A stretch of DNA of 64,000 nucleotides from Polaromonas sp. (GTDB lineage: Bacteria; Pseudomonadota; Gammaproteobacteria; Burkholderiales; Burkholderiaceae_C), in contig NZ_JAQSDN010000043.1 of NCBI RefSeq assembly GCF_029945925.1, forward strand, positions 78,398-142,397, given 5' to 3'. The notes below the pieces were generated by a model. The model had not been told where the DNA came from. It searched no databases and saw only the letters and a program-made list of their open reading frames with translations. A program made the translations under genes and the position numbers. This document shows, piece after piece, positions 10,497 to 30,418 of this stretch (its first letter is position 1; every line of letters begins with the position of its first letter).

Positions 10497-11693
10497 TCAG
10501 ACCCGTTCGAAGATGCCTGCGGCGCCTTGCCCCATCCCCACACACATCGTCACCATGCCGTACTTGAGCTGGTGCCGGTGCAGCGCATGGATCACCGTGG
10601 CGGCACGAATCGCGCCGGTGGCGCCCAGCGGGTGGCCCAGCGCAATCGCGCCGCCCATCGGGTTCACTTTCGCCGCATTCAGGCCCAGCGTGTTGATGAC
10701 CGCCAGCGACTGCGCGGCAAACGCTTCATTCAATTCATACCAGTCGATGTCGTCCTGCTGCAGGCCGGCATAACGCAAGGCAGCGGGAATCGCCTCGATC
10801 GGGCCTATACCCATGATGTGCGGCGGCACGCCCTTGGCCGCGTAGCTGACAAAACGCGCGAGCGGCTTCAGCCCGTGTTCCTTCACCGCTTTTTCGCTGG
10901 CCAGGATCAGCGCGCCGGCGCCGTCCGAGGTTTGCGAGCTGTTGCCCGCCGTGACCGAACCGCGCGCGGCGAACACTGTCTTGAGCTTGGCCAGGCCTTC
11001 GAGCGAGGTGTCGGGGCGCGGACCTTCGTCCAGGCTGACGGTACGGGTTTTGCTGATGACTTCGCCGGTCTCCAGGTCCGGCGAACGGTCGGTGACCTCG
11101 ACCGGCGTAATCTCGGCCGTGAACTCGCCGGCCTGCTGTGCCTTGATGGCCTTCTGGTGCGACTCGACCGCAAACTGGTCCTGCGCCTCGCGCGACACCT
11201 TCCACTGCTGCGCGACTTTTTCAGCCGTCAGGCCCATGCCGTAGGCAATGCCGATGTTCTCGTCGTTGGCAAACATGGCCGGCGACAGCGAGGGCGAGTT
11301 GCCCGACATCGGCACCATGCTCATGCTTTCGGCGCCGGCGGCGATCATCACATCGGCCTCGCCGACACGAATGCGGTCGGCTGCCATCTGGATGGCGGAG
11401 AGGCCCGACGCGCAAAAGCGGTTGACGGTGATGCCGCCCACGCTGGTCGGCAAGCCGGCCAGCACCGCACCGATACGCGCGATGTTCAGGCCCTGCGGGC
11501 CCTCGGGAATGGCACAGCCGCAAATCAGGTCCTCGATCGCTTTCGGGTCCAGCGTGGGCACCTGCGCGAGCGCGGCATGCAGCGCACGCACCAGCAGCTC
11601 ATCGGGGCGGGTGTTGCGGAAAAACCCCCGGTGCGAGCGCCCAATGGGCGTGCGCGTGGCGGCAACGATGTAGGCTTCCTGGACTTGTTTCAT
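10497..11693 (-). CDS. thiolase (acetyl-CoA C-acyltransferase)
   Basis: NRFCASGLSAIQMAA active-site Cys motif, NEAFAAQ, GGAIALGHPLGATGA, CVGMGQGAAGIFE. Confidence 0.93.
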   Translation of the reverse strand: MKQVQEAYIVAATRTPIGRSHRGFFRNTRPDELLVRALHAALAQVPTLDPKAIEDLICGCAIPEGPQGLNIARIGAVLAGLPTSVGGITVNRFCASGLSAIQMAADRIRVGEADVMIAAGAESMSMVPMSGNSPSLSPAMFANDENIGIAYGMGLTAEKVAQQWKVSREAQDQFAVESHQKAIKAQQAGEFTAEITPVEVTDRSPDLETGEVISKTRTVSLDEGPRPDTSLEGLAKLKTVFAARGSVTAGNSSQTSDGAGALILASEKAVKEHGLKPLARFVSYAAKGVPPHIMGIGPIEAIPAALRYAGLQQDDIDWYELNEAFAAQSLAVINTLGLNAAKVNPMGGAIALGHPLGATGAIRAATVIHALHRHQLKYGMVTMCVGMGQGAAGIFERV

Positions 11694-11702
11694 GGCTTTC
11701 CT

Positions 11703-12113
11703 TTATGGGGTAATTTCAGACTCCTTCCCCCTCTGGGGGAAGGTTGGGATGGGGGCGGCCGAGGCCAACTCATTCAATCGATTGAAGATTGCCTCGACCA
11801 TCGACTGCAGATCAGAAAATGGCAAATTGGCGGGGAAACGCATCACCTCAAATCCTTGTCTGCTGAAAAAAGTGTCGCGCCTGCCGTCATAAGCTTGTCG
11901 ATCACCATGCTGCGATCCATCAATTTCGACAATCAGTCGGGGAGCAAGACAGGCAAAATCAGCGACATACGCACCCATCGGGTGCTGGCGCCGGAATTTG
12001 AATCCCAGTTGCTCGCCACGCAGCCTCTGCCAAAGTAAACACTCGCCGTCGGTCATGTCGCGCCGAAGGGACTTGGCGAAAGTCCTGGCATTGACAGTGG
12101 CTTGGTTCTGCAT
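11703..12113 (-). CDS. DUF559 domain-containing protein (Vsr/endonuclease-like fold)
   Basis: MQNQATVNARTFAKSLRRDMTDGECLLWQRLRGEQLGFKFRRQHPMGAYVADFACLAPRLIVEIDGSQHGDRQAYDGRRDTFFSRQGFEVMRFPANLPFSDLQSMVEAIF; typical DUF559 motifs. Start taken at MQNQ; ORF-track start (12176) reads through a repeat. Confidence 0.9.
   Translation of the reverse strand: MQNQATVNARTFAKSLRRDMTDGECLLWQRLRGEQLGFKFRRQHPMGAYVADFACLAPRLIVEIDGSQHGDRQAYDGRRDTFFSRQGFEVMRFPANLPFSDLQSMVEAIFNRLNELASAAPIPTFPQRGKESEITP
11721..11760. repeat. inverted repeat arm, one end of DUF559 unit
   Basis: CTCCTTCCCCCTCTGGGGGAAGGTTGGGATGGGGGCGGCC; inverted relative to 12117-12163. Confidence 0.85.
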
Positions 12114-12116
12114 ATC

Positions 12117-12163
12117 GGCTGCCCCCCATCCCTGCCTTCCCCCAGTGGGGGAAGGGGCAAGAC
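12117..12163. repeat. inverted repeat arm, other end of DUF559 unit
   Basis: GGCTGCCCCCCATCCCTGCCTTCCCCCAGTGGGGGAAGGGGCAAGAC; reverse complement matches 11721-11760. Confidence 0.85.
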
Positions 12164-12172
12164 AAGATAGAT

Positions 12173-12682
12173 TCATTCACTTTTCCTCGGGCCGGAGGGA
12201 ATCCAGGCCCAGACAAATTCGCATTCGACCGGGTTCACACCGGCCTCATCCAGCACGGTGACGGACACCGTCACTTCGCCCTTGTCGCTGGCCTGCATGG
12301 CGGCGCGCTGCTCGTCGCTCAAGGTGGCCACGGCGCGTAGCGCGCCGGTGGCGCGCTTTTTGAACGCCATCTTCAGCTCCTTGGCCAGCGGCGTGCAGTC
12401 ATCACGCACATTCATGCCGACCACCATGCCGGTGGCGGTTTCCGCCAGCAGGTTCATCGCCGAAGCATGGATGCCGCCAATGTGGTTCTGCACCTTCTTC
12501 TCGTTCTTGATGCCGATCTCGACCCTGCTGACTGTCATCTCCAGAAAGTCCAGCCCCGCCGTGCCGGTGAAAGGCACGGCGCGGTGCATCACCACACCGC
12601 GAAACCAGGTGCGCGCAAAAGCCGGCAGGTCGGACAGCCGGTCCAGCTGGCGTTCGAGGCGGTTGGGGAAATGAGTGCTCAT
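12173..12682 (-). CDS. DUF4442 (hotdog thioesterase-like) protein
   Basis: MSTHFPNRLERQLDRLSDLPAFARTWFRGVVMHRAVPFTGTAGLDFLEMTVSRVEIGIKNEKKVQNHIGGIHASAMNLLAETATGMVVGMNV. Confidence 0.8.
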   Translation of the reverse strand: MSTHFPNRLERQLDRLSDLPAFARTWFRGVVMHRAVPFTGTAGLDFLEMTVSRVEIGIKNEKKVQNHIGGIHASAMNLLAETATGMVVGMNVRDDCTPLAKELKMAFKKRATGALRAVATLSDEQRAAMQASDKGEVTVSVTVLDEAGVNPVECEFVWAWIPSGPRKSE

Positions 12683-12719
12683 GGACTTTGATCGGTTGTG
12701 CGAAGTAGCGTGCGTGATT

Positions 12720-12840
12720 GACAAAGCGTAGCGAGGAGGCATCAGGCCAGGCGCGGGCGCCCGGAAGCACTTGGCCCGTACTTCTGTACGTGAGGATTGA
12801 TTCTGGGCTGCAACGACGCATGATGCCTCCGCAGTAGCTT
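12720..12840 (-). repeat. post-stop structured repeat, copy 2
   Basis: GGAGGCATCA/TGATGCCTCC (10 bp perfect), GCCCGGAA/TTCTGGGC, CGTAC-TTCT-GTACG then TGAGGA; GCAACGACGCA; starts 2-3 nt after the FadB-like stop on the minus strand. Confidence 0.82.
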
Positions 12841-12842
12841 GA

Positions 12843-15332
12843 TCAGTTGCGCACAGGTTTGCCCGTGCTCATCATGCCCATGATCCGCTCCTGCGTTTTC
12901 GGGTGTTCCAGCAGCGAACAGAAGGCCTTGCGCTCCAGCGTCATCACGTATTCCTCGGTCACCAGCGAGCCGGCATCGACATCGCCGCCGCAGACCACGT
13001 TGGCGATCAGGCTGGCAATGTGGAAGTCGTGCGCGCTGATGAAGCCGCCGTCGCGCATGTTGACCAGCTGGCCCTTGATGGTCGCCAGGCCGCTACGGCC
13101 GACCACCGGAAACGGCCGCTTGTGCGGTGCGCGGTAGCCGGAGTTGAACAGCGCGCGGGCCTCGTTCAAGGCGACAAACAACAGCTCGTCCTTGTGGGGC
13201 ACGATCACGTCGCTGTCGAGCAGGTAGCCGATCTTGCGGCTCTCAATGGCGCTGGTGCCGACCTTGGCCATGGCCGCGGCGGTGAAGCCCTCAGTCAGGA
13301 AAGGCAACATGTCCTTGCTGGTGGAGCTTGCCGCGTTCTCCGCAGCGCGGCGCGCAATATAGGTCAGGCCGCCGGCACCCGGCACCAGGCCGACACCGAC
13401 TTCGACCAGGCCGATGTAGCTTTCCATCGCGGCCACGCGTTTGGCCGAGTACACCGCCAGCTCGCAGCCGCCGCCCAGCGCCAGGCCGCGAACGGCCGAC
13501 ACCACGGGAACGGCCGCATAACGCAGCTTGAGCATCACGTTCTGCATCTCGGCCTCGGCGCCTTCCACGGCCGAGACACCGGCCATCATGAAGGCCGGCA
13601 GCATGGCCTGCAGGTCGGCACCGGCCGAGAACATCTCGTCGTTCGACCAGATCACCAGGCCCTTGTAGCTTTTCTCGGCGAGGTCCACGCCCATCGCCAG
13701 GCCTTCCACCACATCGGGGCTGATGGCGTGCATCTTGGTCTTGATGCTGGCGATCAGCACATCGCCCTGTTCACCAGCCAGCGTCCACAAACGGATCGCG
13801 TCATCTTCGTGCAGCGTCGTGCCGGCGGTCATGAAGTCGGGCAGCGCCTCGCCCAGCAGTTTTTCGGGGAAATGCTGGCGGTCGTAGACGGGAAGCGCGC
13901 GGCGCGCCACAAATTTGCCGGCCGAAGCGCTCCAGGAACCCTGCGCCGTGTGCACGCCGCCGGCATCCGCCACCGGGCCCTTGAAAACCCACTCGGGCAG
14001 CGGCGCCTTGCACAGCGCCTTGCCTGCATCGATGTCTTCCTGGATCATCGTCGCCACGTCCAGCCAGCCGGCTTCCTGCCACAACTCGAACGGTCCCTGC
14101 TTCATGCCGAAGCCCCAGCGCATGGCCTGGTCGACATCGCGCGCGTTGTCGGCAATGCTGGCCAGATGCACGGCGGCGTAGTGAAAGCTGTTGCGCAGGA
14201 TGGCCCAGAGGAACTGGCCCTGCGGTCCTTCGGCGTTGCGCAGCAGGCGCAGGCGCTCGGCGGCCGGCCGCTTGAGCATGCGGGTGTACACCTCGTCGGC
14301 CTTCTGGCCGCCGGGCACGTACTCCTCGCTCTCCAGCTCGAAGCGCAGGATGTCGCGCCCCACCTTCTTGTAGAAACCGGCCCTGGACTTCTGGCCCAGG
14401 TTGCCCAGTTCCAGCAGTTTTTTCAGCACATCGGGCGTGCCGAAGCTGGCGTAGAACGGATCGCTCTTTTCGTCCAGGTTGTCCTGCAGGGTCTTGATGA
14501 CGTGGGCCATGGTGTCCAGGCCCACCACGTCGGCGGTGCGGAAGGTGCCGCTGCTGGCGCGGCCCAGCTTCTTGCCGGTCAGGTCATCGACCACGTCATA
14601 GGTCAGGCCGAAGTTCTCGACCTCCTTCATCGTCGCCAGCATGCCGGCAATGCCGACGCGGTTGGCCACGAAATTGGGTGTGTCGTGGGCGCGGATCACG
14701 CCCTTGCCCAGGCCGCTGGTCACAAAGGCTTCGAGGTCGTCGAGCACCCTGGGGTCGGTGGTCGGCGTGTTGATCAGCTCGACCAGCGTCATGTAACGCG
14801 GCGGGTTGAAGAAGTGGATGCCGCAAAAACGCGGCTTGATGGATTCCGGCAATGCCTCGCTGAGTTTGGTGATCGACAGGCCCGAGGTGTTGCTCGCGAC
14901 GATGGCGCCTTCACCGATGAAAGGCGCGATCTTGTGGTACAGGTCGGTCTTCCAGTCCATGCGTTCGGCAATCGCCTCGATGATCAGGTCGCACTCCTTG
15001 AGAACATCCATGTGTTCCTCGTAGTTGGCCTGCTGGATAAGGGCCGCGTCTTCGGGCACGCCCAGCGGTGCGGGCTTGAGCTTTTTCAGGCCTTCGATCG
15101 CGCGGCTGACGATGCCGTTTTTCGGGCCTGTTCCGCCGCCGGGCCGCCCCAAGGTGGAAGCGGCCCCCTCGGGGGGCAGCGAACCACGCGAGGCGGGGAG
15201 CGTGGGGGCGCCGTTATCGGGCAGGTCAAACAGCACCACCGGCACCTTGAGGTTGACCAGATGGGCGGCGATCTGCGCACCCATCACGCCGGCACCGAGC
15301 ACGGCGACTTTTTTGACTTGGAATCTTGACAT
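12843..15332 (-). CDS. 3-hydroxyacyl-CoA dehydrogenase / enoyl-CoA hydratase (FadB-like multifunctional)
   Basis: VAVLGAGVMGAQIAAHLVN, IEAIAERMDWK, NTSGLSITKLSEALP, RFCGIHFFNPPRYM; C-terminal crotonase domain. Start at MSRFQVKKVAV rather than the repeat-derived upstream extension. Confidence 0.92.
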   Translation of the reverse strand: MSRFQVKKVAVLGAGVMGAQIAAHLVNLKVPVVLFDLPDNGAPTLPASRGSLPPEGAASTLGRPGGGTGPKNGIVSRAIEGLKKLKPAPLGVPEDAALIQQANYEEHMDVLKECDLIIEAIAERMDWKTDLYHKIAPFIGEGAIVASNTSGLSITKLSEALPESIKPRFCGIHFFNPPRYMTLVELINTPTTDPRVLDDLEAFVTSGLGKGVIRAHDTPNFVANRVGIAGMLATMKEVENFGLTYDVVDDLTGKKLGRASSGTFRTADVVGLDTMAHVIKTLQDNLDEKSDPFYASFGTPDVLKKLLELGNLGQKSRAGFYKKVGRDILRFELESEEYVPGGQKADEVYTRMLKRPAAERLRLLRNAEGPQGQFLWAILRNSFHYAAVHLASIADNARDVDQAMRWGFGMKQGPFELWQEAGWLDVATMIQEDIDAGKALCKAPLPEWVFKGPVADAGGVHTAQGSWSASAGKFVARRALPVYDRQHFPEKLLGEALPDFMTAGTTLHEDDAIRLWTLAGEQGDVLIASIKTKMHAISPDVVEGLAMGVDLAEKSYKGLVIWSNDEMFSAGADLQAMLPAFMMAGVSAVEGAEAEMQNVMLKLRYAAVPVVSAVRGLALGGGCELAVYSAKRVAAMESYIGLVEVGVGLVPGAGGLTYIARRAAENAASSTSKDMLPFLTEGFTAAAMAKVGTSAIESRKIGYLLDSDVIVPHKDELLFVALNEARALFNSGYRAPHKRPFPVVGRSGLATIKGQLVNMRDGGFISAHDFHIASLIANVVCGGDVDAGSLVTEEYVMTLERKAFCSLLEHPKTQERIMGMMSTGKPVRN
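15126..15215. repeat. GGCCCCCTCGGGGGG-family palindromic repeat inserted in frame inside the FadB-like CDS
   Basis: CGGGCCGCCCCAAGGTGGAAGCGGCCCCCTCGGGGGGCAGCGAACCACGCGAGGCGGGGAGCGTGGGGGC; core identical to intergenic copies at 4.5 and 8.5 kb. Confidence 0.85.
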
Positions 15333-15345
15333 GTCTTCTCCTGTT

Positions 15346-15426
15346 ACCTCTCCCCGTGGGAGAGGGTTAGGGTGAGGGCTCTCCAAGGCCGCCCTCACCC
15401 CCGCCCTCTCCCCGAAGGAGAGGGAG
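15346..15426. repeat. REPIN-like inverted doublet of palindromic REP sequences
   Basis: ACCTCTCCCCGTGGGAGAGGGTTAGGGTGAGGGC-tctccaaggcc-GCCCTCACCCCCGCCCTCTCCCCGAAGGAGAGGGAGT. Confidence 0.88.
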
Positions 15427-30318: not shown

Positions 30319-30330
30319 GCCCATTCTTCA

Positions 30331-30418
30331 CTCCCTCTCCTTCCGGGAGAGGGCGGGGGTGAGGGCACTGCGCACTGGGCTACCCTCACCCTGACCCTCT
30401 CCCTGAGGGAGAGGGAAC
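30331..30418. repeat. REPIN-like inverted doublet of palindromic REP sequences
   Basis: CTCCCTCTCCTTCCGGGAGAGGGCGGGGGTGAGGGC-(spacer)-TACCCTCACCCTGACCCTCTCCCTGAGGGAGAGGGAA; same arms as 15346-15426. Confidence 0.88.

Follow-up and report, generated by a model that had tools for sequence, protein, structure and literature searches.

The window, a 64,000-nucleotide stretch of a Polaromonas sp. genome, carries a stand-alone DUF559 nuclease gene that lies in a fatty-acid operon between two inverted copies of a hairpin-forming repeat. The features of this locus are as follows:

10497..11693, minus strand: FadA-type thiolase (PF00108/PF02803), the downstream flank of a slot that is conserved in relatives
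11703..12113, minus strand: DUF559 (PF04480) PD-(D/E)XK/Vsr-like nuclease gene, 136 aa (Pfam E 1.5e-33)
11723..11743, plus strand: palindrome of the 3' arm, CCTTCCCCC TCT GGGGGAAGG (9-bp hairpin fold, z -3.0 and -3.9)
11744..11755, plus strand: G-rich tail of the 3' arm, towards the gene, TTGGGATGGGGG
12123..12134, minus strand: G-rich tail of the 5' arm, towards the gene, CAGGGATGGGGG
12135..12155, minus strand: palindrome of the 5' arm, CCTTCCCCC ACT GGGGGAAGG
12173..12742, minus strand: DUF4442 thioesterase-like gene, the upstream flank of the slot (59-88 bp where the slot is empty in relatives)
12843-15398: FadB-type 3-hydroxyacyl-CoA dehydrogenase (3-HAD)/enoyl-CoA hydratase, preceding the DUF4442 gene

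On the minus strand the order is FadB-type 3-HAD, DUF4442 thioesterase-like gene, DUF559 and FadA-type thiolase; the nuclease gene thus lies, as the earlier note had it, between acyl-CoA genes of one direction, the thiolase and the thioesterase-like gene both being on the minus strand. The bracketing of the coding sequence by inverted repeats, also proposed there, was borne out. The two arms (11723-11755 and 12123-12155) are 33 nt long, 91% complementary and spaced 367 nt apart, and each consists of a 21-nt palindrome (CCTTCCCCC-3 nt-GGGGGAAGG) with a 9-bp stem and a G-rich, inward-pointing 12-nt tail, nnGGGATGGGGG, a layout that we call P-T-gene-T-P. The 3' arm, palindrome and tail together, encodes the C-terminus of the DUF559 protein, and the final codons (PIPTFPQRGKES...) are indeed supplied by the repeat. 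The start codon had been placed 4 bp inside the other arm. The DUF559 reading frame stays open to an ATG at 12176; because orthologues begin at the methionine of MQNQ, we placed the start at 12113-12111, which adjoins the arm and lies within the unit, outside the arm itself. The palindrome, for which 0.04 matches are expected by chance in the window, is located at the two arms only, and in the 4.78-Mb genome its exact form is likewise confined to these two arms. No target-site duplication (TSD) was found at the ends of the window unit.

Judged by sequence, the DUF559 protein is of the PD-(D/E)XK kind and has a Vsr-like nuclease domain. A profile search of the window gene returned PF04480 and a weak PF18741 only, the Y1 HUH domain (PF01797) being absent. 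The protein's family matches the solved structure 3HRL (NGO0050 of Neisseria gonorrhoeae; E 7e-32), and D53, E64, D66, Q69 and H70 are invariant among 19 relatives. The AlphaFold model is poor (pLDDT 57) and served as a lead only; this low-confidence model matched 3HRL first and, weakly, the Vsr-like homing nuclease I-Bth0305I second. YcjD of Escherichia coli is a DUF559 protein, and YcjD, NGO0050 and Caulobacter VsrA are sequence homologues of the window gene. YcjD detects Vsr (PMC1189080), DNA damage can result from VsrA (PMC12907096), and one list of intein-borne EDxHD homing nucleases includes a DUF559 gene (PMC9403480). Vsr-like EDxHD homing nucleases are, by a weak structural match, fold relatives (PMC9403480, PMC3943268). 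At sapF-fabI of E. coli (L261-L266), genomes carry either ycjD or the eefRABCD efflux operon; the ycjD allele is covered to at least 80% in 3360 of 5426 genomes, and on the 3' side of ycjD there is a REP-like relic with a second, incomplete copy of the YcjD C-terminus beyond it. We dropped the presence or absence of ycjD as an empty-site test, because the other allele is the eefRABCD operon and offers no clean empty site (PMC12817139). Membership in a defence system was also set aside, the PADLOC match being weak and partial (E 0.007).

Inverted arms recur widely around stand-alone DUF559 genes, though not around all of them. DUF559 loci were sampled throughout the class, at one or two genomes per family, with extra loci from plasmid or secondary-replicon records of Deinococcus, Azospirillum, Sphingomonas, Sinorhizobium and cyanobacteria; the 89 stand-alone loci come mostly from different gammaproteobacterial families, with some from Alphaproteobacteria, Deinococcus and cyanobacteria, the Comamonadaceae orthologue set being excluded. 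When the two 250-bp flanks were compared by an ungapped inverted-repeat score, 35 of 83 loci scored at least 22, compared to 0.5% of swapped flanks and 0.7% of displaced windows at the same loci, and 11 weak loci or loci with a DUF559-like domain fused into a large protein scored 11 at most. A detector of hairpin-plus-tail arms, in which the tail cut-off was set after a first look (a stricter threshold gave few detections) and was the same for the controls, found arms on one side at 22 of the 89 loci (15 of 195 control windows) and none at 26. The enrichment of inverted arms that the earlier note had proposed as its test is massive: 41 of the 89 loci have arms on both sides, compared to 1 of 195 control windows, and 33 of these 41 follow the exact P-T-gene-T-P order. 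In Deinococcus units the arms score 20 and 47 and the tails face outward, and the E. coli and Neisseria loci retain at most a one-sided relic. What can be said most safely is that the stand-alone members of DUF559 are nuclease genes associated with REPs.

The class of the arms tracks the lineage of the nuclease. First, with arm tails sorted into five classes, 36 of 42 loci have left and right arms of identical class, where shuffling gives a mean of 11.6 and at most 23. Second, arm class changes 11 times on the DUF559 protein tree compared to 31.3 times after shuffling, host phylogeny being uncontrolled across families in this comparison; with near-copies removed, the 11 changes compare to 17.6, and 0 of 200 shuffles were as low. 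Third, the fadA slot is an internal control for host phylogeny, in that the same genus and the same site hold two lineages, each with its own arm class: an A-type protein with A arms (the window and G036) and another DUF559 lineage with B arms (G004 and G002).

A genome scan recovered 20 full relatives in Polaromonas, Hydrogenophaga, Variovorax, Ottowia, Rhodoferax and unclassified MAGs. In these, DUF559 directly precedes the thiolase within the same operon, and the CTCCTTCCCCC..GGGGGAAGGnnGGGATGGGGG arms are present with few exceptions. The unit has therefore long been resident in Comamonadaceae, and the window copy is an old inhabitant of the fatty-acid operon and not a fresh insertion. Presence/absence polymorphism at orthologous sites was seen for the thioesterase-thiolase slot. 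In G026, G033, G336, G017 and others the gap measures 59-88 bp and has neither unit nor arms; within Polaromonas it is empty in many genomes, including the closest ones. In other genomes of this genus the slot holds an A-type unit (G036 and G018), the B-armed lineage named above (G004 and G002), or a unit with C-type arms (G013), and relic single REPs occupy it in G001 and G021. The gene together with its own arms has been lost and replaced as one block, repeatedly, and the Comamonadaceae unit is vertically held with such loss or replacement superimposed. An armless DUF559 orthologue at the same locus, which the earlier note had regarded as a refutation, does exist in G016; we count it as an exception.

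REPs of this kind are also dispersed through genomes, many of which are drafts. Scored by the degenerate half-REP pattern GGGRGARGGNNGGGRWGRGGG, the repeat was found in 38 of 60 genomes with DUF559 and in 28 of 214 without (OR 11.5, p 5e-14), the latter 28 having repeats without a strong DUF559 gene; reversed-pattern controls were nearly always zero. Y1 transposases are associated more weakly with the repeat (OR 3.5), and the DUF559 effect is equally strong in Y1-free genomes, where the repeat occurs in 9 of 19 genomes with DUF559 compared to 8 of 112 without (p 5e-5). Around the Y1 gene, DUF559-type arms were found at none of 21 Y1/RAYT loci of repeat-bearing genomes (20 plus that of the window genome, whose single Y1 gene is located elsewhere); many of these loci have GGGGTCAG-type inverted repeats instead. 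We therefore rejected RAYT as the sole mover of these repeats: its loci lack the arms, and the association persists without Y1. The GGGGTCAG-type repeats fit the GGGGWSAS terminal inverted repeats (TIRs) reported for RAYT-like genes of the TIRtron class (PMC3733652). Y1/RAYT-like genes with GGGGTCAG(A)-type inverted repeats occur in many gammaproteobacteria (L170-L189), and at L181 (G185:C1:424674-430620) a RAYT-like gene has a DUF559 neighbour ~2.6 kb away, the inverted repeats of the two genes belonging to separate classes.

The ~80 dispersed repeats of the window genome are of type B while its DUF559 arms are of type A, a type represented in this genome by the two arms and one near match only; there is therefore no obvious sign that the resident repeats are driven by the resident DUF559. 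Type-A repeats are dispersed in the relatives G016, G018 and G024, and in G016 they form REPIN-like inverted pairs 112-128 bp apart. That such pairs are internal deletions of a DUF559 unit was rejected, as in 12 type-A pairs the spacer matches those of other pairs or the REP arms only, and not the DUF559 gene. In the window itself, type-B inverted REP pairs lie at 15340-15410 and 30320-30400; the former overlaps the N-terminus (ESPHPNPLPRGE) of the listed 3-HAD reading frame, the true start of which is probably downstream of the listed one.

Block movement of a DUF559 unit is directly evidenced in G092, in which three copies of one unit (~534 bp, 98% identical) lie in unrelated flanks. Each copy has a 73-bp terminal inverted repeat, the inner part of which is the REP arm, and 9-bp direct repeats lie outside the copies (GTGCAGATT twice, GTTTGTAAC twice, and GTTTTTAAC/GTTTGTAAC). 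Given 9-bp TSDs and a TIR that extends beyond the REP, we suggest that the mover in G092 was a DDE transposase acting in trans. Over 69 units searched for TSDs, only the G092 family was positive, and absence at most units is as expected for REP-like elements. The idea of a mobile unit thus holds for block transposition in G092 only, whereas the Comamonadaceae unit is, judged by its conserved position, a vertically held resident.

Some type-B REP pairs of the window genome lie inside a ~200-bp MITE with GTAACTACTCAG ends and 8-bp TSDs that is absent from G026 and G033. The GTAACTACTCAG-TIR MITE carries such a pair at L229, L231 and L244 (G000:C13:43728, C13:49864 and C25:14050), with a perfect 8-bp target duplication, CTACTCCT, at L229; this MITE is possibly IS66-like. 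Other REP pairs, ~85-95 bp long and laid out as tail-palindrome/palindrome-tail, sit in-frame in purL- and uvrA-like coding sequences (L227, G000:C8:48908-48992, and L249, G000:C31:26256-26343) and resemble Rickettsia palindromic elements. G026, G033 and G336 lack the purL insert, and the purL linker of G014 and G017 (L270 and L269) contains a different palindromic insert, GCAGCCCCCT..AGGGGGCAGCGAA; this linker is a hotspot for in-frame repeat insertion.

We favor, with rather more belief than doubt, a model whereby the DUF559 unit is a REPtron-like module in which the nuclease recognises and cuts its cognate untagged REP, and repair then copies or homogenises REPs. The unit would consist of a stand-alone DUF559 gene, encoding a Vsr-like PD-(D/E)XK nuclease, between two inverted copies of the cognate REP. 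The nuclease would recognise the hairpin or tail of its own REP class, either extruded or single-stranded, and would nick or cut there; repair of the break could then place a copy of the REP pair, or of the arm-flanked gene, at a new site or, alternatively, homogenise REPs in place. The analogy is to RAYTs, which are thought to act in this way on REPINs, and to Vsr-like EDxHD nucleases, which do so on inteins and introns. The earlier note had suggested that DUF559 plays a RAYT-like role for these repeats, the unit being a REPIN with a nuclease gene as its spacer; the association and the anatomy on which this idea built are strongly supported, but not that DUF559 itself moves the repeats, and recognition of the REP, its cleavage and cleavage-driven copying are steps that we infer. 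More tentatively, and with belief falling a little short of doubt, we suggest that, in several phyla, the widespread untagged REPs (CCCTCTCCCnnnGGGAGAGGG-nn-GGGGTGAGGG and variants) have their dedicated enzymes in DUF559 proteins, which would form a second REP-propagating machinery beside RAYT that is non-homologous to it, with a PD-(D/E)XK enzyme and not a Y1 enzyme.

The main alternative is that REPs are spread by a DDE transposase through MITEs, or by RAYT, and that DUF559 is merely carried along or retained. Such a passenger would fit the REP pairs within ~200-bp MITEs (GTAACTACTCAG ends, 8-bp TSDs) in the window genome, the extra TIR and 9-bp TSDs of the G092 units, and a window DUF559 arm type unlike the dispersed type. 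However, it would not be expected to belong to the same family across phyla, with class-matched arms that follow its phylogeny; moreover, RAYTs lack these arms, the association holds without Y1 genes, and displaced windows show no enrichment. We regard hitchhiking as unlikely. A close rival of the cut-and-copy model is a homing variant, to which we give still less credence, in which DUF559 cuts a REPIN between or near its inverted REPs and the gene is copied in via the shared arms, which would represent target homology and not transposon ends. The fold kinship with Vsr-like EDxHD homing nucleases (structural match at rank 2, weak; PMC9403480, PMC3943268), gene-less REPIN-like pairs of the same geometry in related genomes, two lineages with their own arms in one slot, the relic single REPs in G001 and G021, and the lack of TSDs at most units are all consistent with homing, but we found no orthologous site at which some genomes have a REPIN and others the gene unit, and an intact arm pair would stay cleavable. 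It is improbable that the arms are regulatory, serving as bidirectional terminators or as mRNA-stabilising hairpins and so insulating a nuclease gene that could be toxic: while stable hairpins lie near both gene ends and Caulobacter VsrA can damage DNA (PMC12907096), neither arm has a terminator-like T-run, and the conserved non-hairpin tail, the inverted orientation and the dispersed identical copies would be unexpected of terminators. A search for a terminator or an Rfam RNA that would explain the arms returned nothing. Coincidence of a GC-rich repeat with an ordinary nuclease gene, with which the armless G016 orthologue would agree, is scarcely credible, being refuted by the enrichment and class-match tests and opposed by the Y1-free co-occurrence.

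REPs are among the commonest bacterial repeats, and to our knowledge an enzyme is known only for the GTAG/CGTC-tagged REP classes. A survey of REPs closes by asking whether untagged palindromic repeats are interrelated and tied to specific proteins (PMC3733652). Through the association seen here, one very widespread class of untagged REPs gains DUF559 as a concrete candidate for its enzyme, and this nuclease family is probably the partner so far lacking for a widespread class of bacterial repeats that has had no explanation. The association also offers a likely role for a large family of "unknown function" that includes E. coli YcjD and N. gonorrhoeae NGO0050. No paper linking DUF559 to REPs was found in a literature search outside of which most subscription journals and preprints lay.

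Several known systems resemble the DUF559 unit in part. YcjD, NGO0050 (3HRL) and Caulobacter VsrA belong to the same family but are known only as single genes for which repeats were not noted. EDxHD (Vsr-like) homing nucleases, e.g., I-Bth0305I and DUF559 in inteins, have a related fold, and their cutting drives the copying of their own gene; by contrast, the DUF559 unit has no intron or intein and is framed by inverted REPs, and the structural match is weak. TIRtrons, i.e., RAYT-like genes with long TIRs, and MITEs share inverted ends and small non-autonomous relatives with the DUF559 units, which differ in having neither a Y1 nor a DDE transposase and, for the most part, no TSDs; unlike a short non-coding MITE or REPIN, the window unit contains an intact 136-codon gene. 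The closest parallel is the REPtron with its RAYT (TnpA-REP). In both systems, the gene of a DNA-cutting enzyme, mostly low-copy and vertically held, has inverted hairpin REPs at its borders, and enzyme lineage and repeat class go together. Dispersal of the cognate REPs, often as inverted pairs, is a probable further parallel, seen for type A in relatives and with pairs in G016, while the dispersed copies of the window genome are of type B. However, the enzyme is a Y1 HUH protein in REPtrons and a PD-(D/E)XK/Vsr-like protein here, a GTAG/CGTC tag there contrasts with a 10-12 nt G-rich tail here, and the RAYTs of the same genomes have other repeats. The window unit, with its nnGGGATGGGGG tails in place of a GTAG/CGTC tag, is not a member of the REPtrons, because the Y1 enzyme and the GTAG tag are both absent. 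Altogether, DUF559 units are REPtron-like in anatomy and distribution and unrelated to RAYT.
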